DNA of 64,000 bases from Thermoanaerobaculia bacterium (GTDB taxonomy: Bacteria; Acidobacteriota; Thermoanaerobaculia; Multivoradales; Multivoraceae): NCBI GenBank assembly GCA_022826745.1, contig JAJDUI010000025.1, positions 1-64,000 on the forward strand. The letters are read 5' to 3'. A model generated the notes under the pieces. It had not been told where the DNA came from and searched no databases. It saw only the letters and a program-made list of their open reading frames with translations. The position numbers and the translations under genes are program-made. Shown here one piece after another: positions 20,384 to 40,260 of this stretch. Position 1 is the stretch's first letter; each line of letters starts with the position of its first letter.

Positions 20384-20761
20384 ATGCGCTACCGCGAGGA
20401 GCTTCCGCCAGGGTGTCCACCCGATGACGCCGACGAGGTCGAGGGGCCTCGCTCGATGTTCCGGCTCGTTCGGACGATTCCACCGACCGAAGACGACTTC
20501 AGATCCCAGCGAGCCGAGAAACCTGATCAAGTGTTTGCCGGTGTGACCGAGTGCCAAGTCCGCGGCCTGTCGGTCCATGCGGATCGCGCCGACTCCGAGC
20601 GGGTGCTGAAACTGCCGAAGATGAAAGGACGCCACGTCTGTAGACTGTCGTTGACGGCCGGGGCGGGTCGGGTTCAGCAGACCGGGCAGCGCTCCCATCA
20701 CACTTGGTGGCCGTTCGCTGATTACGACGTGTTGGCCTGTTGCGACGGTGACGTGCGATGA
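20384..20761 (+). CDS. hypothetical island protein (125 residues)
   Basis: No named family comes to mind, although short proteins with the pattern ELPPGCPPDDADEV, FRLVRTIPPTEDDFRSQRA, CQVRGLSVHAD and QQTGQRSHHTWWP recur next to defence genes as far as I recall. The conserved Cys, the SHHTWWP block and the compact size suggest a small globular domain. The ATG at 20384 keeps the ELPPGCPP block in the protein; ATG 20456 would lose it. The stop overlaps the start of the next gene (ATGA, 20758-20761), so the two probably act together. Confidence 0.72.
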   Translation: MRYREELPPGCPPDDADEVEGPRSMFRLVRTIPPTEDDFRSQRAEKPDQVFAGVTECQVRGLSVHADRADSERVLKLPKMKGRHVCRLSLTAGAGRVQQTGQRSHHTWWPFADYDVLACCDGDVR

Positions 20762-21903
20762 AGACCATCACCCACGAGGCGACCCTGTTCTGGTACGACG
20801 GGCCCCAGGTGTTCGAGGCGCGCGATGCGATCGGTGGCCACTACGTGGCGGTAGCCGTAGAACAACCACCCGGCGTGAGCCGCCATGTCGTCGTGGGTCT
20901 ACCGCCGGTGGAGCTGCACCGGCTCCGAGCCGGTGCGCTCGATCTGCGAGCGTGCCTGGTCGAGGCTGGTGCCGAGGAGTGGCACTTGACCCCTGTCGAC
21001 GCGGATTTGGCGGAGCCGGTTCCGCTCGACCTCCAAGCGGGCTCCCTTGAGGAGACGGGATTATTGCCGGACGAGGGCTTCTTTCTTCATCCCGATTCTC
21101 CGGACGAGTCGACGCTCGTCGAATCCCGGGCGCGCAACAGGCTGGTGATGGAACTGGCGGCCGAGCCTCCGGAGGCTGCCACCGAACATCGCATTCGACT
21201 CGATACGTACCTTGAGATTCTCGGCGAGGTCCAGACCCTGGTCAGGCATGCGTACAGGTCGGCGTGGCGGAAGCTGTCCAAGGACTATCGCGGCATGCTG
21301 GACCAGGACACGGGCCCCATGCTGGATGTTGTCGTTCCAGCGTCTGGCGGCTCGTTTCGAGTGCTTCTCGAGGCGACCCAGGCACCTAATCTGATTGGAG
21401 AGAGCGAGCTCGCCCGTGCCCTACGGCGGGTTGATGCGTTGTTCGAGGAAGTGGGGGAACCTGACAGGGCACTTGCGACGGTGCGGGAGCACAGGGGCCA
21501 CTTCGCGGGCTCTTATCTGAGGCTGCTCCGCGTTCTGGCAGAGCGCGAGACCAGCCTTCGGTACTCGTGGGCGGAGCCATCCGCAGACGGCGCATCACAC
21601 CGTTCGGTGACCTCAGCGGAGGCCGATCGACTCGTTCATGTGCTCTCCGAGGTTTCGAACCTGAGCACGGAGTCCGTCGAGTTGGTAGGCGATTTCGAGA
21701 AGTTCAACCGCGCTTCGGGTCTATGGGGGTTGCTCACGGAGGCAGGCAAAGTGCAGGGGAGGATCCGCGATGGCGGCCCGAGCTTGGACGGTTTGGAAGT
21801 CGGTGGCCGCTACAGATTCTCCTGCGTTGAAGAGATCGACCGGACCGAGGGTACTGGGCGAGAGAGAAGAACACTGTACTTGGAAGGGCACGATCCAGTC
21901 TGA
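20758..21903 (+). CDS. hypothetical island protein (381 residues), partner of the preceding gene
   Basis: I do not recognise a family. The N-terminal part (about 1-130) looks like a beta-rich domain (TLFWYDGPQVFEARDAIGGH, then YVAVAVEQPP) of the kind seen in small sensor or scaffold domains. The C-terminal half is mainly helical (YLEILGEVQTLVRHAYRSAW, ARALRRVDALFEEV) and ends with a segment resembling a small beta domain (GGRYRFSCVEEIDR). No nuclease, ATPase or membrane motif is visible. Tight coupling to the 125-residue gene suggests a two-gene unit, possibly a toxin-antitoxin-like or regulatory pair at the island edge. It is convergent with the helicase gene, 91 bp away. Confidence 0.75.
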   Translation: MKTITHEATLFWYDGPQVFEARDAIGGHYVAVAVEQPPGVSRHVVVGLPPVELHRLRAGALDLRACLVEAGAEEWHLTPVDADLAEPVPLDLQAGSLEETGLLPDEGFFLHPDSPDESTLVESRARNRLVMELAAEPPEAATEHRIRLDTYLEILGEVQTLVRHAYRSAWRKLSKDYRGMLDQDTGPMLDVVVPASGGSFRVLLEATQAPNLIGESELARALRRVDALFEEVGEPDRALATVREHRGHFAGSYLRLLRVLAERETSLRYSWAEPSADGASHRSVTSAEADRLVHVLSEVSNLSTESVELVGDFEKFNRASGLWGLLTEAGKVQGRIRDGGPSLDGLEVGGRYRFSCVEEIDRTEGTGRERRTLYLEGHDPV

Positions 21904-21994: not shown

Positions 21995-24900
21995 TCAGCC
22001 GCGATCCAGTAGGTCCCCCAACGATCGCAGGTTCGTGCAGCCGGGATCAGCGTCGCTACGTTCATCCTCGTCTGCGTCCCACTCCGCCGGCTGAAACAGC
22101 GGGTTCCCCGGCGACCACAGCTCCACGCTCTCGGAATGCTCTTCGTAGTACGCCGGGTCGGTCGTCACCCGGAGCGCTTCCTTCATGCCCGGCGCGAGCA
22201 GGCTGTACTCGCGGGCGCCCATTGCGCCGACCTCGACGCCGGGCGACATGAGGTCGGGCCGCGAGATGACGCGGTCGAGGTCGGCCATAGTCACGGGCGA
22301 CTCTGGAAGCACGGGCATCTCCAAGTCCTCGTCGAGTACCTCGTCGAGATCGAAGCCGGCGCTCTCGGCCTCCTCTACGCGGTGCTGGAGTCGGTTGGCG
22401 AGAGACTGGGATGCGTCGCGGCCGGCGAGCACCTCCCCCGTGATCGTGCGCGGCAGTTCCGCCAGGATCGGTTGCAGGCGGCCGACGACGGCCTCGAACA
22501 GGCCGATTCGGTCGCGCAGCGCCTGGTACACGTCCGTCTCCACGGTGTCTTCGTAGTGCAGGTTGACGATCTGGATCGTCGCGCTCTGCTGGCCTAGCCG
22601 ATCTATGCGGCCGATGCGCTGCTCGACGCGCATCGGGTTCCACGGCATGTCGTAGTTGACGAGAGCGCCGCAGAACTGAAAGTTCAGGCCCTCCGATGCC
22701 GCGTCGGTGCATAGCAGGATGTCGGCGTCGCCGTCCCGGAAGCGTCGCTTGACTTCGTCGCGGTCGATCTTGCGCCAGTCGCCGCCGCCGGTTGGCGCTT
22801 CGCCGCCGCGGCCCGAGTAACACATCAGTCTGGCCGCGCCCCGGTCGGCGCCGAGCGACTCGCGCAGGAAGTCCATCGTGTCGGTGTACTGGGTGAACAC
22901 CATGACCTGCGCGTAGCCGTCGTCGCGGAGGCGGCCGAGTTCGGCCTTGAGCGCGGCGAGCTTGCTGTCGGGCGGGAGCCGCCGCGCCCTGCGGAGAAGG
23001 TCCGCGATGGCGCCTTGTTCCTCGGCCTGCAGGACGGCGCGCTCCTGCTCGGCCAGCTCGTCGGCGTCCCAGTTCTCGGTGCGGATCTCGTCCTCGAAGG
23101 CGTCCTCGTCCAGGCTGGTACGACGTTCGCGGCCGGCGTCCTTGGAGGCTTCCAGTCGGTCCTGGAGCGTGTTGCGGAGGGCCTGGAAGCTGCTCGCCAA
23201 GCGGCGGCGATAGGTGGTCATCACGAAGCCGACCGCGTTCCGGTCGCGGGCCTCGGCCCGGTTGTAGGTGCTGGAGATGTACTCCCCGACGGCTTCGTAG
23301 AGCTCTCGTTCCTCGGCGCTCATCGACACCATGCGGTCCTCGACGCGCCGAGCCGCGATTGCCGCGTCGACCATGCCGTGTTCCCTGTACTTCCGCAGCA
23401 GTTTGCGGGTGTGGCGCGAGACTCTGTGCCGGATGGGGGTGTTCGCTCGGGCGACGGCCACGGCGGCTCTTCGCTCCGGCGCCTCCAGCCGCCGCCGGGC
23501 GATGGATGAGGGGCTCCTCAGGGCTCTAAGCATCTTGCCGGCGCCGAGCGAACGAAGGCCGGAAGCGCGCTCCGCCACGGCACTCTCGGTGGCGCCGTAG
23601 CGAGCTTCGACCGCCCGGAACATCTCCGCGATCCGGTTCAGAGCCTCGTGTGACGGGTTCGGCGCTTCGACATCCTCGAAGAACTTCAGAAACCGCTCCT
23701 GGGTCCATTCGGGCGGCAGGCCGAGAAGAGACAGCAGATCCCAGACCTCCACCGGATGGACCTGCATCGGCGTGGCGGTCAGCAGGACCAGTCCTTCGGT
23801 CTTGTGCGCGATCCCCTGGAGCAAGCGGAGCATCGCGTTCGGCCGCTGCCTCCCCTGGCTGCTGCCGACCTCACGGCGGCGAGCGTGGTGGGCCTCGTCC
23901 ACGACGACCATGTCCCACCGCTCGGCATCTTCGAGCAGGCTCCGCGCGCGGTCGCTCCGGCGCATCAGATGGCTCGACACGATGACGGCGGGTTCCCGGT
24001 GCCAGTCGTTCCGGCCGACGTCGCGTTCGTTCGCGCCGCGGAGAGCCGGCGAGGGGTAGCGCACGATCCGCCGCCCGTCGTAGATCGGCCAGTTCAGGTT
24101 GAACTTCTCCCGCAGCTCGATCTGCCACTGCCGGCACACCGCTTTGGGCGCGAGGATGAGAATGCGCTTCGCGCGCCCGGCCAGCCAGGCCTGCCGGAGG
24201 AGCATGCCTGTCTGGATCGTCTTGCCCAGCCCCACCTCGTCGGCGATAAGCAGGCGCGGAGGCCAGTCAGCGTAGAGCCTCTCGAAGGCCCGGACCTGAT
24301 GCGGCCAAGGAGTGACTGCCGCGGTGGTTTCACCGACCCGCCGGCCGCCACCGGGCAGGGAGGGTGCCTGCTCGATGAAGGACCACACCCGGTCCCGCAG
24401 GTCCGGCGTCGGTTGGGCCGGCGACACCGACTCTTCGGCGACGGGAGCGGGCGGCGGTTCGTCGGGCGGCGTCGTCGCCTCGGCGCGCTTTAACCGGGCG
24501 GGTTTGTCTCTCTCCGGCATGAAACGCAGCAAATCCCGGCGCGCGGCCTCCGGCGCCTCCAGCACCACGACATGGGGCGATTCGTCGGCCCACAGGCGGT
24601 CGAAGTTCGCCTGCTCCCGCTGCACCCGCTCGGGCTCGGAGCCTTCGCCCCAACTCTTGTAGACACTGATGCTCTCCCAGTTCTGGCGCCAACCTGCCGC
24701 GGTTTCGTTGAGGCTGCCGGTCCAGGCGATCCGGTCGCCGACCCGGTCCTCGATCACGCCCGACTTCTCATGGAAGATCCCGTCGGACGGGATCGGCCGC
24801 CGATTGGCATTGCAGGGGACGGCAACCTTCACTTCGAGGTGGCCGCCCGCGACCATCCAGGCGAGCAGTTCCAGGGCGTCGGCCGACTCCTGGTCGGTGG

Positions 24901-25195
24901 GTTCAAGCGGTATGCTGCCGATACGCTGCTCGACCATGTCCCGCAGGCTCTCTCCGCGTTCGATCGCCTCGATCTCGGGCGGATCGAGGGTGCAGCCCAC
25001 GAGCAGCCTCATGCGCCCGGCGTTGCGGACGAGCCCCTCGATGCCTCGCGCCGCCAGGGTTAGCGCGCCGGCCTTGAAGTAGCCGGTCAGGCGGTCGTAG
25101 CAGGCCGCGTCCTCAAGCGCCGGGATATAGAAGACGCGAACTAGGTCGCCGTCCTCCGGCGTGTACTTAAGCCGCCAGTCGTGATCCGAGAGCAT
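21995..25195 (-). CDS. PLD-like nuclease domain fused to SNF2 helicase (defence)
   Basis: 1066 residues from ATG 25195. Residues 1-200 form a phospholipase-D-like domain with HEK at 142-144 and the GSLNETAAGW block (160-169). A Pro-rich linker (about 235-290) leads to a SWI2/SNF2 helicase: ADEVGLGKTIQ (318-328), DEAH (433-436), LLTATPMQ, and the C-terminal motifs LCTDAASEGLNFQ and VEQRIGRIDRLGQ. Such fusions occur in DISARM-like and related anti-phage systems, where the helicase moves on or remodels foreign DNA. Only one HxK motif is evident, so nuclease activity would need a dimer or may be absent. It is 4 bp from the methyltransferase stop and reads intact. Confidence 0.9.
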   Translation of the reverse strand: MLSDHDWRLKYTPEDGDLVRVFYIPALEDAACYDRLTGYFKAGALTLAARGIEGLVRNAGRMRLLVGCTLDPPEIEAIERGESLRDMVEQRIGSIPLEPTDQESADALELLAWMVAGGHLEVKVAVPCNANRRPIPSDGIFHEKSGVIEDRVGDRIAWTGSLNETAAGWRQNWESISVYKSWGEGSEPERVQREQANFDRLWADESPHVVVLEAPEAARRDLLRFMPERDKPARLKRAEATTPPDEPPPAPVAEESVSPAQPTPDLRDRVWSFIEQAPSLPGGGRRVGETTAAVTPWPHQVRAFERLYADWPPRLLIADEVGLGKTIQTGMLLRQAWLAGRAKRILILAPKAVCRQWQIELREKFNLNWPIYDGRRIVRYPSPALRGANERDVGRNDWHREPAVIVSSHLMRRSDRARSLLEDAERWDMVVVDEAHHARRREVGSSQGRQRPNAMLRLLQGIAHKTEGLVLLTATPMQVHPVEVWDLLSLLGLPPEWTQERFLKFFEDVEAPNPSHEALNRIAEMFRAVEARYGATESAVAERASGLRSLGAGKMLRALRSPSSIARRRLEAPERRAAVAVARANTPIRHRVSRHTRKLLRKYREHGMVDAAIAARRVEDRMVSMSAEERELYEAVGEYISSTYNRAEARDRNAVGFVMTTYRRRLASSFQALRNTLQDRLEASKDAGRERRTSLDEDAFEDEIRTENWDADELAEQERAVLQAEEQGAIADLLRRARRLPPDSKLAALKAELGRLRDDGYAQVMVFTQYTDTMDFLRESLGADRGAARLMCYSGRGGEAPTGGGDWRKIDRDEVKRRFRDGDADILLCTDAASEGLNFQFCGALVNYDMPWNPMRVEQRIGRIDRLGQQSATIQIVNLHYEDTVETDVYQALRDRIGLFEAVVGRLQPILAELPRTITGEVLAGRDASQSLANRLQHRVEEAESAGFDLDEVLDEDLEMPVLPESPVTMADLDRVISRPDLMSPGVEVGAMGAREYSLLAPGMKEALRVTTDPAYYEEHSESVELWSPGNPLFQPAEWDADEDERSDADPGCTNLRSLGDLLDRG

Positions 25196-25199
25196 GGAC

Positions 25200-28160
25200 T
25201 CAGTCGGCGTCTTGCTGCCAGATCGCGATCTGTTCCGGTTCGTCGATGCGGTCCGCGAAGGCGAACCGCCGGAGATTGTAGAGGGCCTCGAAATCACTGC
25301 TGGACGCGGCGATCTCGCCCTTCAGCGCGACGCCGGTGAACGTCGCGGAAACCGGGAGCACCTCGAGCACGGCCTCGAACGCGGCGAGGAAGAGCGGATC
25401 GTCGTCGATCAGCGCCCGCTCGAGCAGGTCGCGCGCCTCTTCCAGCGACCGGTTCCGCGCCATGTGGGCGGCGTGGTGAAGAGCGTCGATCATTCCCAAG
25501 GCGCCGTCCGCGGGTCCCAGAGCGCCGCGAGCCGCGCGCTTCTCGCTGTCCCAGAGTTGAACGTTGGCGCCCTTCTTCAGCGCCAGTCTGCCGACGATCT
25601 CGCGGTCGAGGTCGGCGCCGGTGGCGCGGGCAAGCCGCAGGGCCTCGTCGTACGAGAACACAGGAGCCTTGAAGGCGTCCCAGGCCAGAACGAAGAAGGC
25701 GGTCGCCGGGTCGAGGTCGACGTTCGCCTTCAGATGAGTCAACTGCTCCAGCCGCCACCGCTTCACTTCGCGCCGGGCGACGTCGAGCGCGTCCTCGGGC
25801 GTCACGGCGTAGGGGTCGTGTTCTTCCAGTTGGAGCGTTGTCTGGCGCCCTCGCCGCCTGGCGCTGGCGGGCTGTTCCCGGGGAGTGCCGCGCCGCAGTG
25901 GCCAGTGTTCGGAGAACCGCTGCAATGCCGGGCCGAAGCAGGCGAGGTACAGGTCGACGCCGCCGATTCCGGCCTCCTGAAACTCGCCGACCCGGGCTCG
26001 GACCGCCTTGGCGACTTCGGGTTCCACGTCTTCCCAGTAGGTTGCGCCGTCGCGGAGTTCCACCGCCTGCCGGTCGTCGGGTGGCCGACAGACGAGGAAG
26101 ATCGTGCTCTTGGCTGCCGCCTTGTCCTTGATGTGCAGGCTGCCGCCGGCCTCCGTGTTGATCGGCCAGGAGGCCGTGATCCGGAATCCGGCCGTCATCA
26201 GACCGGTGGTCAAGGCGTCTCAGGCACCGGTCGCCTTGTGGGTGAACATCAAGGTCATGATGCCGTCAGGCTTCAGGACTCGCCGACACTCCTTGAAGAT
26301 CGCCGCCATCCGCTCCTGGTAGTCGCGGCCAGCCAGCGCCTTCGCGCCCTTCTGGCCCTGGAACCGCGCCCGATTAGCGACCGCCTCGTTGTCCTTGTCC
26401 GTCAGTTGGCGGCGAAACAACTCCGGGAACACGTGCCCGGCGGTGCGCTTGAGCCAGACGTAGAAGAAGTCGGAGAGTTCGGCGTACATCACGTTGTCGT
26501 AGTAGGGCGGGTCCATGACGACGACGTCGATGGAGGCGTCCTCGATGTGGTCTAGGCTGTCGGCTGGTTTGCACGTGATCGTGGTTGGCGGGCGTTCTCT
26601 CTCGGCATTGGCCACAGGGAACGACTGGCGAGCGAACAGGGGGCCGTCTTCCAAACCGTGGTCCGGATCGACTAGTTGGGCCAGTTCCCTGATGCACTTG
26701 GTCGTCTTCGCGATGGCCCAGTCGTAGCCGACGCCGGCGACCAGCGGTGCCATCTCCGCGTAGGACTAGACGAAGGCGAAGTCGTGCCGGTCGAATATCG
26801 AACGCACTCGGCCCGTCGTGTTGTCCCAGCGCCCAGCCCGGTTGTTGTAGTTCAGCAGCGTGTCGAGCGTCAAAGCCAAGTAACCGTAGGCTGCTTTCTG
26901 GGTCTCGTCGAGTGACTTGGCCGAGCGGTCCGCTTCGAGCATCTCGCTGAAGACCTCGACGCTTGTGCCGTGGCAGAGCAACTGCCGGGGCGAGAACAGA
27001 TCGCGCCATCGTCTCATCCCGTACCGGTGAGGCTCAGCCGTCTTGACTCCGTCGGGGATCCGCTCGTTCGGCACGATGTCGAACGCCTCCCATACCGGCG
27101 TCTTTTCAGCCAGACGGCTGACGATCTCCGCCGAGTTGTCGTCCTCGGGCCGCGGCGCCCGGTAACCGCGCACCCACTTCTCGCGGATCTTCCCGGTCTT
27201 CGTCCGCGTCTCGACCCGCCGTTTACAGACGACGGCGTAGAGCTGTTCGCCCATGCGGCCAGCCTGCGCCTGCTCCTTGATCTCGTCGCCGTCGATCACC
27301 CGGCCGCAGTCGGGGAACGGGCACGTCCCATCCCCTCGCGCGACCGTCCCGGCGGACTGCTCGCCGGCCGACTCCACGATCTCGAACGAGCAGACCCGGC
27401 CCGCGGTTCCGGGACCGCCGGCAACTTCTGGTCGAAGCCGCACGCCCGTTCCGTCGGGCGCGAGCCGCCAGTTAGGCGAGAGCGGCACGAGGCCTTCGCA
27501 GTAGGGGCAGGAGACGGTGCGAGCCCAGAGGTAGCCGTCCGGGCGGCAATCGACTTCAGGTTCAATCGGGAAGATCCCCGCGAGCCGTTGACGTACTTCA
27601 TTCGCGAGCGTCTCTCCGAGTGCGTGGAAGCGCTCCAGGAGAGAGTTGCCGTACTCGTTCGGCCACTCAAGAGTTGCTCGAGTAACGAGAACTGCGACCG
27701 CATTTAAGTCGTTCGCCACGGTTGGGAGCCCAAGGCGGACTGACTCGAACGGAACGCTCCCGCCGCCGGCGGTCGGGTCGAGAATCTGTGGCAAGTCCCC
27801 AAGACTCTGGCCGATCCGTTGTCTCTCGCTGCTTGATGGTGTGTAGCCGAAAGCGCGTGGGTAGCCGTATGCGGCGGCTCCGAGCCGTGTACCGCTTCGC
27901 GTCGCAGCCGCGATTCGCTTGCGGGCTTCTACAGGATCGCCGTGAATCCCAAGTGCGTGAAGGAAGTAACCGCGGTCCGTGTCCTCCGGGAGCAGCGAGG
28001 CGAGCACCGCGGCGCGCGAAGCGACCAGGGGACGCCGGGCCCACCACACGTGCAAGCGGTTCGGCGCAGGAAACGGCGTCATCGGAGTCCGTTCCCGAAG
28101 GCTCTCGATCCCCAGTTCGGTTATCGGCAGCCACCGTTCGATCAGGCGCACGTCGGCCAT
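25200..28160 (-). pseudogene. DUF1156 DNA methyltransferase interrupted by two in-frame stops
   Basis: The whole 986-codon frame is collinear with DUF1156 adenine/cytosine-N methyltransferases, but it contains TAG at 26766-26768 (codon 465) and TGA at 26220-26222 (codon 647). Fragments are 26766-28160, 26220-26753 and 25200-26213, all in one frame. DUF1156 opens with RLHVWWARRPLVASRA; the SAM motif is DPTAGGGSVPFE (128-139). A Cys-rich insert (CPYC, CPFPDC) follows, and the catalytic DPPYYDN starts at 550, in the second fragment. Both stops stand where family members appear to carry Trp (FAFxWSYAEM; xWDAL). SAM-binding and catalytic motifs are therefore on different fragments. Either nonsense mutations, sequencing errors, or readthrough explain this. 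Confidence 0.88.
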
Positions 28161-28163
28161 CCT

Positions 28164-28931
28164 TCAGATCCACTCCTGCGGCTGCCGTGCGAGGATGCGC
28201 TCGCCCGCCGGCCCGAAGTAGGAACGGGACGTGGTGAAGAACGGTGCGAGTCGGCCGCGTTCGTCCGGCGTCAGGACGGTCCGGACCCAGGTGGTCATCC
28301 CGGGCTCGTTCAGGACGTCAGCGGAGACCTCCACTAGATCGTCCCACAGCCTACGCCGAGCGTGGCGAAGCCGGTTCGCGTTCAGGTTGAGCGTCTCAAT
28401 GGAGCGTCTGGCGTCTTCCGCCATAAGGCCAGTGGCGGAACAGGCCTTGTCGTCTGGCTGGATGAACCCGTCTTCCCGCACCTTGAGGATGGCGAGTGCC
28501 GGCGGAAGCTCCCGGGGGTCCAGGAACCCGCCCCACCATTGAGCGGCCTTGGCTTGGCCGCAGCTCTCGTTGCTTCCTCGGCTGCGCCTGGGCTCGTTGG
28601 CGGCAGGAACGGGCCCGGTGCGACCCCTTCGGGGACCGCCGACTCCGAGGCAGCAGGCGACCAGGTTCGAGATGTCGAGCTCCAGGGCTCTGCCCCGCGC
28701 CTTCTCGCTGCGCGGCACGACATGCTCGACCTGCCGGCGTTGAGCCGAGATCGAGGTCTCGCAGTAGGCGCAGAGGCCATGCTGGTTGGAAGTCCACGCC
28801 TCTACGAGTTCGCGGTACGCAGTGCCGGAGTCGTGGGATCGGAACTCGTCCCAGTACGCCTCGTCGCCAACAAGGCACAAGTAGTCCGCGAGCCCCCGCG
28901 GGGGCTCGTCGATCGCCCGGACCGCTTTCAC
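28164..28931 (-). CDS. ptuB: HNH endonuclease, PtuB-like (Septu)
   Basis: 255 residues. The HNH/zinc core reads GLCAYCETSI (Cys54, Cys57), QVEHVVPRSE (Glu69-His70) and NLVACC (Asn89, Cys93-Cys94), as in the TIGR02646/PtuB family. The C-terminal half is helical (ARRSIETLNLNANRLRHARR), also typical. In Septu, PtuB is the nuclease bound by the ATPase PtuA and it attacks nucleic acid on phage infection. The ATG overlaps the stop of the AAA ATPase gene by 4 bp. The gene is complete. It ends 3 bp before the start of the DUF1156 gene, showing how tightly this pair is nested in the larger system. Confidence 0.85.
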   Translation of the reverse strand: MKAVRAIDEPPRGLADYLCLVGDEAYWDEFRSHDSGTAYRELVEAWTSNQHGLCAYCETSISAQRRQVEHVVPRSEKARGRALELDISNLVACCLGVGGPRRGRTGPVPAANEPRRSRGSNESCGQAKAAQWWGGFLDPRELPPALAILKVREDGFIQPDDKACSATGLMAEDARRSIETLNLNANRLRHARRRLWDDLVEVSADVLNEPGMTTWVRTVLTPDERGRLAPFFTTSRSYFGPAGERILARQPQEWI

Positions 28932-30238
28932 TCGGACTCTGCCATCCGCTGGAGCATCTTCCGCTGGCGGATCTCCAGGTCTGCCCGGTTGAGCGCTTGG
29001 TCGTCGGGCGATTCGCCTTCCAGCTTCGCTCGCAACGCCAGAGCTTCCTCCGACTCTCCCTGATCGCTGCTCACCAGGCGGCGGTATGCGTTGAGCGCCG
29101 TCGTGTACCAGTTGTCCGGCCGTTCGTCGACGCCCATCACGGTGCTCAGGACGTCCCCCGCCTCCAGGCCGAACGTGCTCGCCGCCGGCGCTTTGGCCAC
29201 GATACGCCCGTCGTCGTCGACCAACTCCAGAATGTGCTTCGGCTCTACCGTGGTGAGCACGGGGGAACTGTGCGTGGAGACGATGAACTGCACGTTGGGG
29301 AACGTTCGGCGAAGGTCGCCCAGGATCCGCTGCTGCCAGGAGGGGTGGAGATGCAGTTCAACCTCGTCGATCAGGACCACCGCTTCAGATTGAAGCGGAT
29401 CTTCGAGATGCGGATTGCCCTGTGCCATTCGCCGCGCGAGGTCGGCTGCGAGGGTCAACACGGCGCGACAGCCTCCGCTCAGTTGGTTGATTGTCAGGTC
29501 TTCTGACCGACCCGAGTCATGCTCAAGGGTCACCACGAAGCGAAGGGGGTTTGCCTCGATTCTCGGGTCGTCAACGCCGCCGACCATGGACGAGATGGCG
29601 GTTCGTACGGCTCGAAGTTCGCGCGACGTGCTCTCCTGGCTCACCGCCGTTCCTTTGGCGGCGAGCCTTCGCAGTGCCCGGAGTTCTTCGTTCTCCTTGG
29701 CGTAGAACCACTGGAAGAAGTGCCGGAAGTCAGTTCGCGCGGAGAGCGCCCCGTGCCAGGCATCCACTCGGTCGAACCCCTTCTCGAAGCCGCGCCGTCG
29801 CTGAGGCACGTCGAGGACCACCCGGTCCGTGTCGTAGTAGGCCCCGATGGGCAGGTCCCGGGGTTCCGCCTCGTCGAGCGTCAGGCCAGCCTCGAACAAG
29901 AGTGCTCCCAGCCGTCTACCTGGGCCGTGCTTCTTCTCCGAGATTCGGGCAAACTGCCGCCCGGTCTCTTCGCGTTGCCACGACATGCCGTCGGTCGTCG
30001 TCACGGCGACGCGCATCGATTGAGGGCCGCCCCGGCGGTCGGTCTTCAGGAACCGAACGCGGTCGTCCTTCGGCCGCAAGAAGTTCTGGATCGTGCCCAG
30101 TCCCATGGCGATCCCGCTGAGGACGCTCGTCTTTCCGCACCCGTTCACGCCGAACAGGACGGTGAGCTCCGGGTCAGGCTCAAGCACCAAGCGCTCGATG
30201 GCCCGGTAGTTCTCGATTTCGACGGAGGTGAGTTTCAT
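28928..30238 (-). CDS. ptuA: ABC/SMC-type AAA ATPase, PtuA-like (Septu)
   Basis: 436 residues, RecF/SMC-like. Walker A GVNGCGKTS at 30-38, ABC signature region NQLSGGCRAVL, Walker B VVLIDEVELHLHP, then the H-loop STHSSPVL. The tail STFGLEAGDVLSTVMGVDER, followed by a helical C-terminus, is the pattern of PtuA and of retron-Ec78-type ATPases. PtuA forms a complex with PtuB, senses infection through nucleotide state and releases the nuclease. No reverse transcriptase or ncRNA is visible next to it, so a retron is unlikely. It is followed by ptuB with a 4-bp overlap and is divergent from vsr across 272 bp. Confidence 0.85.
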   Translation of the reverse strand: MKLTSVEIENYRAIERLVLEPDPELTVLFGVNGCGKTSVLSGIAMGLGTIQNFLRPKDDRVRFLKTDRRGGPQSMRVAVTTTDGMSWQREETGRQFARISEKKHGPGRRLGALLFEAGLTLDEAEPRDLPIGAYYDTDRVVLDVPQRRRGFEKGFDRVDAWHGALSARTDFRHFFQWFYAKENEELRALRRLAAKGTAVSQESTSRELRAVRTAISSMVGGVDDPRIEANPLRFVVTLEHDSGRSEDLTINQLSGGCRAVLTLAADLARRMAQGNPHLEDPLQSEAVVLIDEVELHLHPSWQQRILGDLRRTFPNVQFIVSTHSSPVLTTVEPKHILELVDDDGRIVAKAPAASTFGLEAGDVLSTVMGVDERPDNWYTTALNAYRRLVSSDQGESEEALALRAKLEGESPDDQALNRADLEIRQRKMLQRMAESE

Positions 30239-30510
30239 GCCCGTTCTCTGGTGGAGCGCGTCGCCCGGGGCTGCCCGAGGCCTGTCTTAGCGGCGGGCCG
30301 GGACGCTACCTGTTGCTGCCGGCGGGCGCGGCGAGGTTGGTGTGAGACGTTCCGCGTTGCAACTCTTCGGTCGAGGACCGTCCAGTAGCTCGCGAGTAGC
30401 GGCGCGGTGGAGAACCAAGTCACTGTGTGCGGAGAATAGCGGCTGTTCGGTGTTCAGCGGTTCTGCGTGGCAGACTCGGTCTGCTAATGCCGCTAGTGGA
30501 GGGGATGCGG

Positions 30511-30930
30511 ATGGCCGACACGTTGACGCCGGCGGCGCGCAGCGCTCTGATGGGCCGGATTCGGGGCAGGGACACTGGGCCCGAACTGGCCGTGCGGCGC
30601 GCGTTGCACGTCTTGGGTTACAGGTTTCGCACCCACGCCAGGGGAGTTCCTGGCCGGCCCGACATCGTCTTCTCTAAGCGCCGGGCCGCGGTGTTCGTCC
30701 ACGGGTGCTACTGGCATCGGCACGGTTGCTCCAAGACCTACACGCCCAAGTCGCGCCGCGGCTTCTGGGAGAAGAAGTTCGCGGCGAACGTCGAGCGGGA
30801 CGGCCGCGTTCGAGAGGCGTTGACGCGGGACGGCTGGCGGGTCTTCGTCGCGTGGGAGTGCGAGATCGAAAGCGACCCGACACTGGTGGAGCGGCTGACG
30901 GCGTTCCTGGGTCCGCCACGTATGCCGTAG
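30511..30930 (+). CDS. vsr: very short patch repair endonuclease Vsr
   Basis: 139 residues from ATG 30511, with ggagggg about 6 bases upstream; an ATG at 30505 is the alternative. Residues align one-to-one with E. coli Vsr: Glu25, catalytic Asp51 in RPDIVF, His64 and His69 in VHGCYWHRHGC, and zinc ligands Cys66, His71, Cys73. Position 63 is Val where E. coli has Thr. Vsr nicks 5' of T in T:G mismatches created by deamination of 5-methylcytosine. It stands before dcm on the same strand, as expected for a repair partner of that methylase. Confidence 0.93.
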   Translation: MADTLTPAARSALMGRIRGRDTGPELAVRRALHVLGYRFRTHARGVPGRPDIVFSKRRAAVFVHGCYWHRHGCSKTYTPKSRRGFWEKKFAANVERDGRVREALTRDGWRVFVAWECEIESDPTLVERLTAFLGPPRMP

Positions 30931-31035
30931 GCGCTTCGTGGGCTCGCCCGGCGGTCCCGGCCGTTCCGTGGGCTGATACGCTCCGTCGCCACGGCCAACG
31001 GCCGTTCGCCCGCGAACGACGGAACCGGGGGAGAC

Positions 31036-32082
31036 ATGATCCGCGCCTTCGACATGTTCTGCGGCCTGGGCGGAAGCAGTCGTGGCGCGGCTGCCGCTGG
31101 TGCGACCGTCGTCGGCGGCATTGACGCTTGGCCCCTGGCGACCGAGGTCTTCTCCCGGAACTTCCCCTCGGCAACGGTCTTTGCGTCCAAGACCCAGGAC
31201 CAGGATCCGGTGCACGTCGTGGCCGAAGTCGGTGCTGTAGACCTGCTCCTCGCTTCCCCCGAGTGCACGAGCCACAGTTGCGCCCGTGGGTCCCGGCCCC
31301 GCTGCGAGGACAGCAGGAACACTGCCTTCGAGGTTGTCCGTTATGCGAGAGCGATGGAACCCCGATGGGTTGTAGTGGAGAACGTGGTCAACATGCGGCG
31401 ATGGCCTAGGTACGAGGAGTTCCTGGCCGATCTGCGACGAGCGGGCTATCGGGTGGTGGAGCATGTGCTCGACGCGGCCGACTTCGGCGTGCGGCAGCGG
31501 CGGCGAAGGCTGTTCCTCCTGTGCGACCGAGATGCGGACCCACCGAGGCGTATCTCGAAGCGGCCAGGGCGTAAGCCTTCCGCCCGTGGGATTCTGGGTG
31601 CGCCGGGTAGCTGGCGGTGCCTACCGCTCAAGAAACCCGGAAGGGCGAAGGCCACGCTCGCGCGAGCCGAGCGCGCGGTAAAGGCGTTGGGTACGGACGA
31701 GTCTTTCCTGATCGTCTACTACGGAAACGACGGAGCGGGAGGCTGGCAGCCCCTCACTGTGCCGCTTCGGACCGTGACCACGCTTGATCGGTTCGGTCTG
31801 TGCGAGCCTGGCCCGGAGGGTCTCACGTTGCGGATGCTCCAGCCGGCAGAGTTGGCGCGAGCGATGGGGTTCGGCGAGGAATTGATCCTGGACCTTGGTT
31901 CCCGGCGGGACCGGATCAAGTTGCTCGGGAACTGTGTCTGCCCTCCGGTGATGGAAGCGGCGGTCGCGGCCTTGATCGGCGAGGCGGGGGCGGTTGGGGC
32001 ACCTGCCGTTTCCCGCGTCACGCCTGCGCTTGCAGAAGCTGAGAATGGAGATTCGGCGGTCGACGAGTTACTTGTGGCCTAG
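31036..32082 (+). CDS. dcm: DNA (cytosine-5) methyltransferase
   Basis: 348 residues; gggggag lies before the ATG. Motif I FDMFCGLGGSSRG (5-17); motif IV has the catalytic Cys77 in LASPECTSHS, so the usual PPC is PEC; motif VI is VVENVVN (113-119); motif VIII is QRRRRLF (154-160); motif X is GNCVCPPVMEA. The target recognition region is short. It methylates C5 of cytosine in an unknown target and is served by Vsr upstream. No cognate restriction enzyme gene is adjacent on this strand; the receiver/kinase pair converges on it with an 11-bp gap and may be part of the same functional unit. Confidence 0.92.
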   Translation: MIRAFDMFCGLGGSSRGAAAAGATVVGGIDAWPLATEVFSRNFPSATVFASKTQDQDPVHVVAEVGAVDLLLASPECTSHSCARGSRPRCEDSRNTAFEVVRYARAMEPRWVVVENVVNMRRWPRYEEFLADLRRAGYRVVEHVLDAADFGVRQRRRRLFLLCDRDADPPRRISKRPGRKPSARGILGAPGSWRCLPLKKPGRAKATLARAERAVKALGTDESFLIVYYGNDGAGGWQPLTVPLRTVTTLDRFGLCEPGPEGLTLRMLQPAELARAMGFGEELILDLGSRRDRIKLLGNCVCPPVMEAAVAALIGEAGAVGAPAVSRVTPALAEAENGDSAVDELLVA

Positions 32083-32093
32083 GCTCCGGGAGC

Positions 32094-33437
32094 TCACGCT
32101 GGCCGTATGGCCGGAGGTAGCCGGAGGACTCCAGGTCGTGAGAGGTAGCTGCCGGAGTGAGTGACAAGGTGCATGAGCAACTGCTCTCGAAGTCGGTAGA
32201 TCGGCCTCCAATCCACGACATCTTCCCGTGCTGCCACGACAGGAAAGCGCGCGCTGAACCGAAGCTCGAAAGGACCTTCATCGGAATGGCGGAGTAAGGC
32301 CGGGGACCTCCAGACGGACTCAGGCGGCTTGCCGCTTGAAGCGCCGTCCGGTACCTCCACGCCGAGCAGGTACGTGAGAGGGCCTGGGCGAGCCAGCACG
32401 TAGTCACACACAGCACCGATACGCACCAAGCGGGGGTTCTGGAGCGTGTCGGATCGCAGTTTGAACTCCTGCTGTGCGAGATGAGCCTGCTCGACGCCGA
32501 AGCGACTACGCAACTGCGCGTCGTCCTGCCACGCTTCGGGAAGGTCGACAACGGCACCCCAAGTGTCGGCGCCGAGGGCACCAGTCCCTGGCGCGAGATG
32601 GACCATGCGGTTGAGCTTTGCGTTGGCCTCGGGTTGAAGGCTTGAGCTATAGCTCCCGACCGTCGCTGCCTTCCATGATCCGGATTGCTGCTCAGGCGGC
32701 TCCCGATGGAGCACTTGGTCTGCAAGAAGTGGAACGAGCGCCGAACTGACCGCCGCGTGAGCGTCGCTCCGGGCCCTGTCCTCTCCAGCCGCCGCGGCTC
32801 CGAGATGTGCAAGAACGGTCCCGAGACCTCCGGCGACGTGCTCGATGGAGCGCTGGTCCTGGGGCACGCTCTCCGTGAGGGCGGAGAGCGTCGCCCCCGT
32901 TGCGGCCTGAACATCGGTCTCCCACTCCAGCAACGCGGCGAGCTGCGGCACGTCGTTGACGGCGTTCAGCAGCGCCTCGCGCAGCTCTCCCGCTGCTCCA
33001 GTGAGCAGCTCGCCGTCGGTCTTGCTGATGAATCGGGTCTTGGCCAGGGGGAGGATCTTGAGCGGGAGGGCGTGGGGTGCCGACGTACTGAAAGCCTGGT
33101 CGAGATACTGCCCGAGGTTTGCGACTTCTTCCTCGTGCGCCGTCCACACGACAAGGATGAAGGGGCCGCCTGTCCGGCTGATGTTGGTCTCAAGAAGCTC
33201 GGCGATGAGGGCGAAATGCCGAGCAGGATCGGTCGTGTAGAGAAGATCGTGGGTCAAGTGGAGATCGAGACAGAGGACTCGCACGCCTCTCAGATGGTCT
33301 TGAGCCCCGATGCCGGTTTCCTCGTTGTAGTGAATGCCTAGACAAGGTGCGCCAAGCTCTTGAAAGGCCCTCTGTAGCGCGATCAGATGGTCTTCGTTGT
33401 CATCCACGACCACGAATCTCGGTGCCGGGAAGATCAT
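32094..33437 (-). CDS. receiver-domain protein with unknown effector region
   Basis: 447 residues. The N-terminus is a response-regulator receiver: FVVVDDNEDH (Asp12, Asp13), the phospho-acceptor candidate Asp58 in VLCLDLHL, Thr99 in VVWTAHEEE, and Lys133 in LPLAKTRF. The remaining 300 residues match no output domain I know: a helical stretch (LLTGAAGELREALLNAVNDV) then an alpha/beta part ending in WRPIYRLREQLLMHLVTHSG. No helix-turn-helix, nuclease or membrane signature is visible. Its ATG overlaps the kinase stop (ATGA, 33434-33437). I infer that the kinase next door phosphorylates or otherwise controls it, and that the C-terminal part is the effector. Confidence 0.8.
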   Translation of the reverse strand: MIFPAPRFVVVDDNEDHLIALQRAFQELGAPCLGIHYNEETGIGAQDHLRGVRVLCLDLHLTHDLLYTTDPARHFALIAELLETNISRTGGPFILVVWTAHEEEVANLGQYLDQAFSTSAPHALPLKILPLAKTRFISKTDGELLTGAAGELREALLNAVNDVPQLAALLEWETDVQAATGATLSALTESVPQDQRSIEHVAGGLGTVLAHLGAAAAGEDRARSDAHAAVSSALVPLLADQVLHREPPEQQSGSWKAATVGSYSSSLQPEANAKLNRMVHLAPGTGALGADTWGAVVDLPEAWQDDAQLRSRFGVEQAHLAQQEFKLRSDTLQNPRLVRIGAVCDYVLARPGPLTYLLGVEVPDGASSGKPPESVWRSPALLRHSDEGPFELRFSARFPVVAAREDVVDWRPIYRLREQLLMHLVTHSGSYLSRPGVLRLPPAIRPA

Positions 33438-35608
33438 CGAGCTGTCCCTCTCGGAAACACCATGGCAAGTAGGGCGCCGTTGAAGTCGGTGGGCGTTTCT
33501 GACTGGCTGGCCGTTGGGAAGGACAGGTGGCCATCGGACAACTCCATCACGAGGTTCGCATAGTAGAGGCCCAGGCCCATGCCCTCGGGGCGCCGACTGA
33601 AGAACGGCATCACGATCTCGGACGGTTCGTCAACGAAGCCCGTGCCGTTGTCGGCAACGATTATGGCCGGCCCGCCGTCGAACTCCGGCTTGACGTCGAC
33701 GTAGAGCGCTCTGTGGCCGGCACTCTCGTCGGGCCAGCGGACCCTGAGCCAGTAGAACGAGTTGTCCAAAAGGTTGTTCAGCGCGCCGAGTGCGAGGCCG
33801 AACACGAAGGTCGACTCGATCTCGGCTGCGTCTTCGTTCAGCGCGTTGCAAACCAAGCGGACTTTGTGCTTGCGGAAGCGCACGCGATTGATGTCGCACA
33901 CTCGGCGGGCGAGCTTGGTGAGGCTGTTGGGCTTCCTGGGACCTTTGCGTAGGAGTTCCGTGAATCCCTCGAGGATCCGGGCCAGTTCCCGGGCCCGAAC
34001 GCGGATGACGCCGCGCTCACCCCCGGACTCGATCAACTCGCAGAGACCCCGTACACCATGTTCAACCTCGTGGAAGATCACGGCCAGGCCCACGCCCGAC
34101 AAGCCGGCTCTCAGCATGGAGTCCCTCAGCTCGTCGTATTCCTGCGCCACGTCGTCGATCAGAGGCGTCAACTCTTTTGCATGGCTGGTTCTCTGTGCTG
34201 CCGCTCTCAGCTTCTTCAGCGCGCCGCCGAGGCGCCGGGTTTCGTGAGTGCGTCCGGTGGAAGTGAGATCTCGAATCCTGCGCTTGTCCTTCGTGCGTTC
34301 GGCTTCAAGCGGTGTCAGCGCCGCGCGGACGATGCTCCTCAGCCGTTTCTGGACCGGGTTCTCGACGAAGCCCTCGCGGTTGGTCTTCTCTTTCAGACCG
34401 TCGCTGTCGGCGAGGGACAGGTCGATTGCGCCGACGACGATGTTCCGGCTGATACCCCGCCGGGGGCGGTTTACGCGACTCAGGTCCAGGCCCAGCCAGT
34501 CGTCCTCCGGCTCGCCGTACGTATAGACGCGGATGCCGTCTCGGTAGACTCTGACACCGCCGTTTCCGTCGAGGTACTGCTCCAGGAGATGACCCTCGGC
34601 CATCTTGCTCAACACTTCTCGGTCGCGATCGAACACGCGAAACTGGCCTTCGACTGGGCCGATCTCGTCCGCAATCGAAGCATCGGCTGTCACTTTACGA
34701 ACTCGCCTTAGTCGCCGTTTTTCCTTGCCGTCAAGTTCGTCCGGGTCGCGTTCAGACTCGACCAGGAGGGGCTGCGAGTGCGCACTGGCTGCTCTGGGTT
34801 CTAGCTGAATGCCGGGTACTCCCCGGAAGCTGTAGTCCCAGTCCAGCAGGCCGTCGACGAATTGAAAGCGGTAGCGCCAGGGGGCACGTTCCAGTAGCGT
34901 GGCCGCGTCGGGGATGTCATCGAGCCAGTCTTTGCCGGGCACGGCAAGGCGCGTCTCGAAACGGTCCGGTCGAGTTGCGTAGGGCGACGCGATAGTCGTG
35001 ACCTGCCGTTGCAGGCGGCGAACCTCGCCACGGGTCCACTTATCCCTTAGTTCGGATACGGTGATCTTGGTTCCGCTTACGTCGCCGGGGAAGACCTCCG
35101 GGTCTCGCGTAGCTACTTCGACCCGCGCATCGGCCAGTTCCTTTTCACTGATCAAGTGCCTCCAGTCGATCGAAACGACACATTCGAGTTGACCTGCAGA
35201 CCGCGTTACCAGTTCAATACGGTTGCCCAGCTTGTGCGCGGCGAACCGCCCGACGCCCTTCTCGCCCAGCGGGAGCCGGCCCTTCGGGGTGCGCTGCAGC
35301 GCCTTACGCTGGCGCTCCCGGTGGTCGTGGCCTGGAACGAGCCAGATGTTGCGTATGACGTTGAAGGACATGCCTTCTCCGTCGTCCTCCACGACGATAG
35401 ACGCGGTTGGTTTGTCTACTTCCTGGAGCGTCACAGTCACCGTCGTCGCGTCGGCGTCGTAGCCATTCTTGACGAGCTCGAATACCGCCAAGCGGGCCGA
35501 GCCGATTAGTTGGTCGCCGAGCAGCTGCAGCAGGCGTGCGCGAGGCCGGAAGGGGAGCTTCAGTGGCTTCGCGTCGGAAGAGCTCGATGTGGACGCGTCA
35601 GCGGTCAC
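33434..35608 (-). CDS. protein with two GHKL ATPase modules (HSP90/MutL-like plus histidine-kinase-like)
   Basis: 724 residues. The N-terminal module looks like HSP90/MutL/MORC: N-box ELVKNGYDADA (44-54), DDGEGM (75-80) and GEKGVGRFAAHKLG (115-128). The C-terminal module looks like a histidine kinase: an H-box-like IFHEVEHGVRG (511-521), N-box NNLLDN (611-616), ADNGTGF (652-658), MPFFSRRP and GMGLGLYYA (676-684). No membrane segments, so it is cytosolic. It is followed by the receiver protein with a 4-bp overlap. The N-terminal ATPase may sense DNA or protein and drive signalling through the C-terminal kinase; this is inference. Sensor kinases with an added HSP90-like module are unusual. Confidence 0.85.
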   Translation of the reverse strand: MTADASTSSSSDAKPLKLPFRPRARLLQLLGDQLIGSARLAVFELVKNGYDADATTVTVTLQEVDKPTASIVVEDDGEGMSFNVIRNIWLVPGHDHRERQRKALQRTPKGRLPLGEKGVGRFAAHKLGNRIELVTRSAGQLECVVSIDWRHLISEKELADARVEVATRDPEVFPGDVSGTKITVSELRDKWTRGEVRRLQRQVTTIASPYATRPDRFETRLAVPGKDWLDDIPDAATLLERAPWRYRFQFVDGLLDWDYSFRGVPGIQLEPRAASAHSQPLLVESERDPDELDGKEKRRLRRVRKVTADASIADEIGPVEGQFRVFDRDREVLSKMAEGHLLEQYLDGNGGVRVYRDGIRVYTYGEPEDDWLGLDLSRVNRPRRGISRNIVVGAIDLSLADSDGLKEKTNREGFVENPVQKRLRSIVRAALTPLEAERTKDKRRIRDLTSTGRTHETRRLGGALKKLRAAAQRTSHAKELTPLIDDVAQEYDELRDSMLRAGLSGVGLAVIFHEVEHGVRGLCELIESGGERGVIRVRARELARILEGFTELLRKGPRKPNSLTKLARRVCDINRVRFRKHKVRLVCNALNEDAAEIESTFVFGLALGALNNLLDNSFYWLRVRWPDESAGHRALYVDVKPEFDGGPAIIVADNGTGFVDEPSEIVMPFFSRRPEGMGLGLYYANLVMELSDGHLSFPTASQSETPTDFNGALLAMVFPRGTAR

Positions 35609-35683: not shown

Positions 35684-36175
35684 TCACGCCCCAGGCTCCG
35701 TCAACAGCATTCGCAGGGCCGCCAGAACCCGCCTCGGTCGGCGCCTGTGCATCGCCATGCCCAGCCAGTAGGCGGCCTCCTCACGGTCCATCCGTTCGAT
35801 GCCTTCGGCGACGGCGCGCATCCGTTCCCGGCTTCGCATGGGGGCGAGTGCGCGGAACGTGAGACCCAGGTGGAGGGCGAGATCTTCGCTCAGGGGCAGG
35901 CCAGGCATCGGTTCGCCCGCGGGGCGGGCGAGCTTGACGCCGGCCTGGGCCAGTCGGCGGAGGACGCGGTGCTCGACCAGTTCCAGGTTGCGGCCCTTGA
36001 GGCCGGCGACGCGGGTTGGCGCGGCGATGTGCGGCGTTGCGGCGGCCGGAAGTTGCCAGACTTCGTACAGCGAGAGGGCCGCGCCCAGCCTGCGGACCCG
36101 TAACTCGTAGCTGGGCGCTGCGCGTCGCGGGTCGATTGTCTGGACCTTGGCCGTGTGTTGCGGATGCGGCGTCAT
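35684..36175 (-). CDS. small hypothetical protein linked to DUF499
   Basis: 163 residues; family not recognised. It has an N-terminal beta-type part (YELRVRRLGAALSLYEVWQL) and a helical C-terminal half (LHLGLTFRALAPMRSRERMR, then GIERMDREEAAYWLGMAMHR). No catalytic motif is visible. It is basic and Arg-rich at the end (HRRRPRRVLAALRML). Its start overlaps the stop of the DUF499 gene (ATGA, 36172-36175), so it is likely an accessory subunit of that ATPase. Confidence 0.75.
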   Translation of the reverse strand: MTPHPQHTAKVQTIDPRRAAPSYELRVRRLGAALSLYEVWQLPAAATPHIAAPTRVAGLKGRNLELVEHRVLRRLAQAGVKLARPAGEPMPGLPLSEDLALHLGLTFRALAPMRSRERMRAVAEGIERMDREEAAYWLGMAMHRRRPRRVLAALRMLLTEPGA

Positions 36176-39100
36176 TCCGCGTCTCCGCCGGTCTCAGGTC
36201 CATCGCTTGCCGGTGGCGGGTTCGCCGGCTTGGCCTGGGCCGATGCCGAGACGTGCGCGGCGCCTCCAGCAAACCGGGTGAGTTGGTCGGCGAGTTGCTC
36301 AGGCTCGTCGCCGTCCAGCGGCAGGCCGTCCGCGAACTCCAGAGTGAACGAGGCTTCGATGGTCGACGCGGCGGCGTCCCGGAACTGCGGCTGGAGGAAC
36401 TCGCGCACCGGTTGTGCGTCGGAGGGCGGGCCGCTGAACGCCAGCTCGAAGGAACCGTCTTCGCGGGTCTCGTAGCCGCCTTCGAACCGGATCGTCTTGG
36501 TCGCCCCGGCCACCGCGTTGACCGCGTTCACCATGGGGAAGGCGTCTCGCGCATCGAACATCCGGATCGTCAGGGCTGCGAGGGCATCAACCTGCCGGTC
36601 GCGCGCCTGCTCCCAGAGCTTGATCAGCGCCTCGCCGAACGGTCCCTCGGCGGAAAACTCGGCTGGCGCGGTCGGTCCGGTCGGGGCCGGCTTGAGCCAG
36701 GTCTCTCCGCCGGCGGGTGCCTCGGGGACTTCTCTGAGCGTGCTTGGTTCCGGTTCCTCCTTGCTCGGCCGGGGCCAGATCAGTTCGTTTCTGGCGTAGG
36801 CCATGGTGAAGATCATCGACTGCTCGTCGATCTCGATGGTCGGCGCCGGGTCGCCGGGGCCGAACAGGAGTTCGCCGCGCTGGTAGACGTACTCGCCGAG
36901 TTCCACGCCCCGGCGGATTCCGCGCACGAAGACGTCGTCGCCCGAGAGCATGGGAAGGCCCGGGTCGCGCCGGAACTCGTCGCGCAGCGCGCCGGTCGAG
37001 ATCTGCCCCTTCTTGAGCGGCGTTCGGTCGCGCACGTAGGCGGGGGAGTCGGGCTGGTCTTCCGACAGGCGGAGCTTGCCGAGGTCCCGCAGCGCGCGGA
37101 CGACCTGCCGCTGGCCGGCGCCGGGGCTCTCCGAGGACGACTGCATGTCGATGGCCGTGGTGCGCAAGGTCCACGAGGCGGCTTCCGAGGCGGTTGCGGG
37201 AGGGGTAGAAGACGTGCCGGTATGCCTGCTGGATGGCGACCGCCAGCTCCTGCTCGGAACGCCGGTGCTGCTCGCGTACCTGATCCTGCTGGTGATCGGC
37301 GAGTTCGGTCAGGCGCTCGGCCTTCTTCAGTTCGCGCAGCGCGAGGCGACGGCGGCTCCGGTCCTGCATGTTCGACTTGCGGGCTTCCTCGGCCGCGACG
37401 AACACGAGGTGATTGCGCAGGGCTCTGAGCGCGGCGCTTTCGGCGCCCTTGCGCGAGAAGATGCGTTCGGTCAGGTCGGGCGCCTCCTCGACCGTCGGCC
37501 CAACCGACACGGCGTCGTAGGACAGGACGACGAGCTTGGGCTTTCCGTCGCCCACTTCGTCCGGCACGTCGAACGGTCCTCCGGGGAAGGTGATCGCGTC
37601 GAAGACCGGGCCCTCGAAGATCCGGCGGATGCGATCGTTCAGTTCGGCGCGGGCCTCGGCGCCGTCGACGTGTTGTTCCTCACGCCGGATGATCTGGCTC
37701 AGGTTCGCTTCGGCCAGGAAGCGCAGCGGGGCGGCGGGGCGGTCGTCCAGGTAGGCGGACTCGGCAACGAACTTCTTGCGTGCGTCCTCGATGAAGCTGA
37801 TGTCGAGGGCCGGCCCGAGCATGGAGTAGCGGAGCCGGTCGGGTGCGAGCCCTTTGAGAGGCTCGTTGAATGCCAGCGTGTGCATGAAGATGGTGCGCGC
37901 CGCGTACTCCGCGTATGGCGGCAGGCCGCCGTGATGAGCTGCGTCGATTTCCTGGGCGAGCGACTTCTTGCCGGCAGGGCCGGCGACGTCGTTGGCGATG
38001 GCCGGGGCGTAGTTGTCCTGGCCCAGCCGGGTCAGGATCTCCTGACGGATCGGCTCGTGGCCCGGATCGATGTGGTGCAGGTGGACCGCCGTCGCGTCGC
38101 GGGGCCGTTCGGCCCAGAGTTGGCCGACCGTGCGCGCCAGCAGCCGAAGCATGCCGCGCACGCGCTGGAAGGTGGCGAGTGTCGCCGTTTTGCCGGTCAG
38201 GGTCTCCAGGACCTCGGGGTGCAGCGGGTAGCTCGCGCGTAGGGCCTCCACGCTTTCGGAGTGGTTGGCCGAAGCGGGGAGGGAGTCGGCTTGAGCGGAC
38301 CACAGTCTGCGGTAGTCGTCGGCGACCGAGGCGCCGGCATCCGCATCGATGCTCTCGAACAGGCGCCGCCGCAGCACCTGGATCGTTTCGTCGTCCGCGG
38401 TCGGGTTGAGCAGGGTCGCCTTGCGGGCGGAGACGCTCTCGGCTTCGGCCATCTGGTCGGCGATGAAGCGGTTCTCCTCGCTGTAGGCGTCCGGCGCGCC
38501 GCCGTCTCCCTTGCCGATCGCCAGCGTGTAGACGAGAGCCGCGTTCGGTGCGTTCTCGATCGCCTTGAACAGCGAGGTCAGGAAGGCGGTCAACTGGTCC
38601 CTTGCGTCGTCTACACGACGGACCTTGCGCAGATAGACGGAGAGTTCGTCGAGCAGGATGAGGGTCGGCTCACCACCGAACAGCTCCTGGAGGGTCCCTG
38701 CACCGGGTGCCGCTCGCATCTCGTCGCTGTTGTGTACACGCTCGTAGCCGGTGGCACCAGCGAGCGCGTAGGCGATCTCGCCCCATGGCGTGTAGGCGAG
38801 GATGCCGTCGCCGAGCGCCCGGCCGTTGGCCGGGTCGGCGTTCTCGCCGTCGAACGCCGCGACGCGAACCTTCCCGGCGGGCAGCAGGGCCGGGTCGACA
38901 AACTCGGAGGCGTCGGTAACGCCCTCCATCCCGCGCGCCGCGTGAACCAGCGCGATCAGTCCGTGGGTCTTACCGCCGCCGTAGGATGTGTCGAGGCGGA
39001 AGATGGCTGCGGCCTCGCCGCCGGCTCCGCTCAGGCGGCGGCAGACGTTCGCGAGCAGGCTCTGCAGCCCGCGAGTGGGGTATGTGTTGGCGAAGAACCG

Positions 39101-39238
39101 CGTCGGATCGACGTAGGCTGGACTGCCACCGCCGCTGACGACCGAGGCGAGATCGGCGGCGAAGTCGGCGTCGGCGACCGCTCCACGGAGGATGTCCTCG
39201 CGTGGTTGGCAGGTCTCGAAAATCGTGGGGGCGGCCAC
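36172..39238 (-). pseudogene. DUF499 AAA ATPase with a one-base frameshift
   Basis: GTG start at 39238. The N-terminal ATPase is clear: RLDTSYGGGKTHGL (Walker A, 87-91) and PTLILLDELSVYL (Walker B), then about 690 residues of DUF499-like sequence to HVFYPSRNRL. There the frame changes. After SRLVDLAH the reading frame becomes nonsense and runs on to 36587, while the natural continuation (TAIDMQSSSESPGAGQRQVV onward) is in another frame to 36172. Removing one G of the gg at 37159-37160 gives DLAHTAIDMQ and a 1021-residue protein. DUF499 proteins partner DUF1156 methylases in defence islands. As read, the product loses about 330 C-terminal residues. Confidence 0.87.
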
Positions 39239-40223: not shown

Positions 40224-40260
40224 ACCGAGAGTATAACCCGGCCCTGGGGGGGGACGGACG

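Follow-up and report, generated by a model that had tools for sequence, protein, structure and literature searches.

How does a gene for a DNA adenine methyltransferase come to carry two premature stop codons, and has the gene been lost, misread, or kept in use in pieces? The question arises from the window analysed here, a stretch of 64,000 nucleotides from a member of the genus to which Candidatus Multivorans belongs (Acidobacteriota). The original prediction described a 986-codon frame split by a TAG and a TGA at positions where tryptophan was expected, and offered decay after loss of selection, targeted mutation and systematic base-calling error as possible causes.

The methyltransferase gene and its two stop codons

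Translation bore out this layout: on the minus strand, from 28160 to 25200 (25200..28160), lie 986 codons and a terminal TGA, open except for a TAG at codon 465 (26766..26768) and a TGA at codon 647 (26220..26222). Read through both stops, the protein carries an N-terminal DUF1156 domain (PF06634, E 5.6e-15; 55.7 bits against a cut-off of 24) and matches the PADLOC HmaB profile (E 1.4e-72) and, below its cut-off, NF042963. The frame is a pseudogene of the DUF1156 N6-adenine methyltransferase (HmaB-like) family.

In an alignment of 85 sequences (80 GTDB loci plus same-genus copies), tryptophan occupies codon 465 in 78 and codon 647 in all 85; a few same-genus genomes entered twice, and with duplicates left out TGG is found in 75/82 and 82/82, respectively. 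The count at codon 465 is slightly biased, since one retrieval pattern (FVWSYAEM) includes that codon, whereas codon 647 lies outside all such bias. Relatives read FAFVWSYAEM or FSFKWSYGEM at the first site and WDAL at the second, so the motifs given in the original prediction were right, and with TGG as the codon in relatives each stop takes a single G-to-A change, as proposed. The great majority of relatives encode the enzyme in a single long frame. Here the SAM motif (motif I, DPTAGGGS) lies 5' of codon 465, whereas DPPYYD follows the TAG at about codons 550-554 and precedes the TGA; the TAG thus parts the two motifs, and no open protein holds both. The expected placement of these motifs on separate fragments was thus confirmed, and the separation of the catalytic motifs supports the view that the methylase would be dead.

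A third lesion and the organization of the operon

Both stops are present in the sequence, but the damage extends beyond the gene to which the original prediction had assigned it. The partner gene, for an HmaC-like DUF499 AAA+ ATPase (36172..39238, minus strand; PADLOC HmaC, E 2.1e-98), is a pseudogene as well. Its N-terminal part is in the frame 36587-39238 and its true C-terminal part in the frame 36172-37167; comparison with three sister genomes places a 1-bp insertion at 37153..37165 (~37160, minus strand), past which the annotated 883-aa frame is out of phase. An ab initio codon-usage scan puts the frame switch at 37169, and in the relatives G011, G001 and G016 the gene is one open frame of 1046-1159 aa. 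The core genes are therefore not all intact: the methyltransferase has two stops and the ATPase gene a frameshift. The third, encoding a PLD-like domain and SNF2-type helicase (21995..25195, minus strand; PADLOC HmaA, E 7.1e-60), the presumed restriction effector, is open, and its ATG lies 4 nt past the methyltransferase stop. PF13091 (PLDc_2) matches residues 168-236 of the helicase (E 5.6e-7); when searched for HxKx4D, the protein showed no canonical motif.

These three core genes lie in one operon, as in Hma and DUF499-centred BREX-related (BR) systems, and the order DUF499–DUF7680–slot–methyltransferase–helicase is kept in most of the 80 relatives. The second operon gene, which is open, encodes a small DUF7680 protein (35684..36175, minus strand; PF24728, E 1.9e-41) and was found in most of the 80 loci. 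DUF7680 is a small protein conserved in this branch, and it occupies the place of DUF3780 in Type-2 BR systems; our literature search found no paper on it.

The slot between DUF7680 and the methyltransferase measures between 0 and 9.7 kb in some 70 loci, and in the scanned genomes (L104, L107, L112, L154) it holds defence modules, for example PtuAB, NsnAB(C), an IrrE/RmrA-like gene or an HATPase cassette. In the window it comprises 30493-35608 and 28164-30238, with every cargo gene open and on the minus strand. The first part is a three-gene cassette, encoding an HATPase_c_3 protein with weak similarity to BbrUII/HgiDII-type restriction enzymes (33434..35608), an accompanying 447-aa protein (32094..33437) and a 323-aa protein (30493..31464). 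The cassette has a single syntenic relative, in a gammaproteobacterial operon of the same kind (L020), at 42-64% identity (48% for the 447-aa and 42% for the 323-aa protein), and this sharing suggests transfer. The second part encodes a Septu PtuA ATPase (28928..30238; E 1.5e-109) and, by profile matches, a PtuB HNH nuclease (28164..28931). A gene for a MazF/PemK-like toxin (39649-39993) and an overlapping frame with a weak RHH match (39987-40412) flank the operon. Past the helicase, a 381-aa plus-strand gene (20758-21903) weakly matches PADLOC PDC-M63B and stands beside the locus in G001 and G015 too.

The same locus in sister species

Within the genus we tracked the locus, which an AMP-binding/BCCT pair borders on one side and an SBP–thiolase cluster on the other, using one genome per species. 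Only in G016 were the DUF499, methyltransferase and helicase frames all seen open; in G011 the DUF499 frame is open and the contig stops within the methyltransferase. In G012 the DUF499 reading frame shifts twice, near codons 438 and 879, and a stretch inserted into the methyltransferase gene contains a TGA. The G001 methyltransferase is interrupted at codon ~243, where two contigs end; these ends bear GGGGCTTGCTGAA in inverted copies together with a CTAG duplication, while the ATPase and PLD-helicase frames remain open. The GGGGCTTGCTGAA end sequence occurs in 15 copies in that genome, mostly near contig ends, which fits a multicopy insertion sequence; judged from these contig ends (its interior is unassembled), the interrupter looks like such an element. 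Two further genomes keep scars. In G015, DUF499 codons 1-77 are fused to DUF7680 from codon 132 onward at an 8-nt microhomology, GAGGCCGC, with the helicase end kept; this scar is in-frame (L154:9480-9820). In G013 only the end of DUF7680 is left. No trace of the operon was found at the locus in five genomes (G009, G014, G017, G002 and G004).

Broken copies make up 3/4 of those readable in the genus, compared with roughly 4/75 elsewhere, where the count is uncurated (Fisher p about 0.002, a rough value). Recurrent loss of the operon in this genus seems the best explanation of these patterns.

Probable recent decay and its possible causes

Our reading, to which we assign a probability of roughly 0.88, is that the methyltransferase and DUF499 ATPase of a defence operon have recently been inactivated by ordinary mutations, and that loss of the operon is under way. 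Decay after loss of selection, one of the causes originally offered, is well supported by the third lesion in the partner gene, by the otherwise clean surroundings and by the independent breakage and deletion in sister species. Against it, the cargo and helicase genes are open, so degradation is not uniform, and G016 is the sole comparison copy that is fully open.

The inactivation of the methyltransferase is probably recent, because the ratio of nonsynonymous to synonymous change is not raised on its lineage (N/S 0.29 for the window against 0.31-0.38 for the other lineages). Pairwise dN/dS of the gene against same-genus copies is 0.14-0.32. A relaxed dN/dS on the broken lineage was looked for and not seen. 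The same genome keeps a second DUF1156/DUF499 locus with open frames (C11:192036-204465; L123:12036-15332 and the following genes), so redundancy may have relaxed selection on the operon in the window; cost is another conceivable cause.

A stronger form of the decay reading holds that selection favours loss because the system may carry an autoimmune cost or keep useful DNA out, so that breakage would be adaptive, not passive. The independent breakage of the copies in the window genome (G000), G012 and G001, the deletion scars in G015 and G013, and the apparently higher frequency of broken copies within the genus would fit such selection. Yet the genomes are few, the outside-genus count is uncurated and the cargo genes at the locus are still open, and relaxed selection predicts the same picture; we therefore consider adaptive loss unlikely.

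Alternative explanations

The lesions were read from the consensus of a multi-contig assembly, in which mixing of strains could in principle affect any single base, and on the plus strand each of the two substitutions reads as C-to-T. It might thus be argued that the stops are artefacts of modified bases or mixed strains and that the gene is intact in the organism. Our codon-usage scan of the window, however, found only the three lesions (the TAG, the TGA and the DUF499 insertion) in 57 kb of coding sequence; a TGA that it marked at 28164 is the boundary between the PtuB and methyltransferase genes. As a control we scanned a 400-kb sample of contig C11 from the same genome, with about 379 kb of coding sequence, which gave 11 nonsense-like and five shift-like candidates. 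On inspection of the peptides, the nonsense-like candidates look like adjacent same-strand genes in one frame, and, of the shift-like ones, the two strongest look like gene boundaries, the three weakest having offsets of at most 120 nt. No true lesion was recognised among the candidates inspected. General sequencing error is unlikely, because two substitutions and one insertion are confined to two genes of one operon. In sister genomes, moreover, the same operon is broken by other means, among them an apparent insertion sequence and deletions, neither of which base-calling could produce. Systematic miscalling at a modified base, as had been proposed, is likewise disfavoured: the contexts of the two substitutions share only CCA, which TGG forces, and the insertion would need explaining as well. 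Altogether, an intact gene behind an erroneous consensus is very unlikely.

The original prediction found two hits of the same type in one gene notable, and we looked upon the tryptophan sites as a possible signature. This was rejected: about 42 of the 79 sites in the methyltransferase at which a transition creates a stop are Trp codons, counting the two mutated ones (38/75 for the rest). With about half of such sites being TGG, two Trp hits would arise by chance with a probability of about 0.28 and are unremarkable, with no sign of a special process. GC→AT changes exceed AT→GC changes on nearly all lineages, broken or not. Targeted mutation is therefore not needed to account for the pair.

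It is hardly credible that a suppressor tRNA or a reassigned TAG or TGA lets a full-length methyltransferase be made: the frame does stay open past each stop and tryptophan is expected at both sites, but the counted genes of the window end in TGA (26), TAG (6) and TAA (2), the methyltransferase itself ends in TGA, the scan candidates elsewhere are gene boundaries rather than in-frame Trp stops, and the DUF499 frameshift would persist. Recoding was rejected on this stop-codon usage. Equally far-fetched is a functional split, in which fragments made by re-initiation would come together as an enzyme, whether active or regulated. An ATG (26753) does follow soon after the TAG and the fragments are co-linear, but the great majority of relatives have one long frame, none of those aligned departs from Trp 647, and the partner ATPase gene is broken as well.

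Predicted consequences of the lesions

If the operon works like its better-known relatives, the damaged gene would encode the self-marking methyltransferase of a BR anti-phage operon. From the BREX and BR literature, we infer that in working relatives methyltransferase and ATPase form a site-recognition complex, which would either methylate host DNA or send the PLD-helicase against unmodified DNA. In the window genome the methyltransferase would be cut into three pieces, with the SAM motif parted from DPPY, and the ATPase would be made without its C-terminal third; with these losses, both modification and restriction should be off. Translation of the helicase may also drop by polarity from the early stops, since only 4 nt separate the methyltransferase stop from the helicase start.

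Loss of modification need not be lethal if the methyltransferase itself is required to start restriction, as reported for BrxX. In Type I BREX, deletion of BrxX is not toxic, from which its authors infer that BrxX takes part directly in initiating defence (PMC11842806). The G001 copy, with a broken methyltransferase beside an open ATPase and helicase, fits this BrxX-type logic. We therefore put forward, tentatively and with the odds against it, that G001 is a natural knock-out in which loss of self-marking is non-lethal, that the methyltransferase probably acts in restriction as in BREX and unlike in classical type II systems, and that the cost of the system to these hosts is what drives the repeated inactivation of the locus.

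The nonsense pair is by itself ordinary, and decayed defence operons are common; the interesting part is the graded loss at one locus, where a single genus displays most stages: open, point-mutated, interrupted, scarred and absent. This loss series allows tests of how a BREX-related system dies and of whether loss of the methyltransferase is tolerated while ATPase and helicase remain. The series itself is useful, as is the methyltransferase-null copy that seems to be tolerated beside open ATPase and helicase frames. Presence calls made by profile search could score such a broken system as present.

Relationship to known defence systems

By its gene content the operon is Hma-like, that is, a DUF499-centred BREX-related system with a predicted anti-phage role. 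With Type I BREX it shares a site-specific adenine methyltransferase for self-marking (BrxX, or PglX), but that is a different subsystem, and the operon genes that we scanned gave no PglZ match. A 2026 study describes such operons as DUF499-centred BREX-related systems, with which it regards Hma as identical, and reports a standalone DUF3780 gene in 98% of Type-2 members (PMC12839542). The window operon shares with Type 2 the DUF499 ATPase and the DUF1156 N6-methyltransferase and resembles it by its PLD-helicase. Type-2 helicases carry an HKD/PLD region at the N terminus, for which the helicase here shows the PLDc_2 match but, in the search made, no canonical HxKx4D. DUF3780 gave no hit among the operon genes scanned, and we do not claim Type-2 membership, because DUF7680 stands where DUF3780 is expected. 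All three profiles of PADLOC Hma (HmaA helicase, HmaB methylase and HmaC ATPase) match the core genes, but the operon differs from Hma in its extra DUF7680 gene and cargo slot, in the N-terminal PLD-like domain of the helicase and in the damage to two of its three core genes. The NCBI models for an anti-phage DUF1156/DUF499/phospholipase-D set (NF042963, NF042962 and NF042964) likewise match all three core proteins, yet at scores far under their equivalog cut-offs (221/1000, 194/1200 and 390/1100 bits, respectively); the operon therefore represents a divergent branch.
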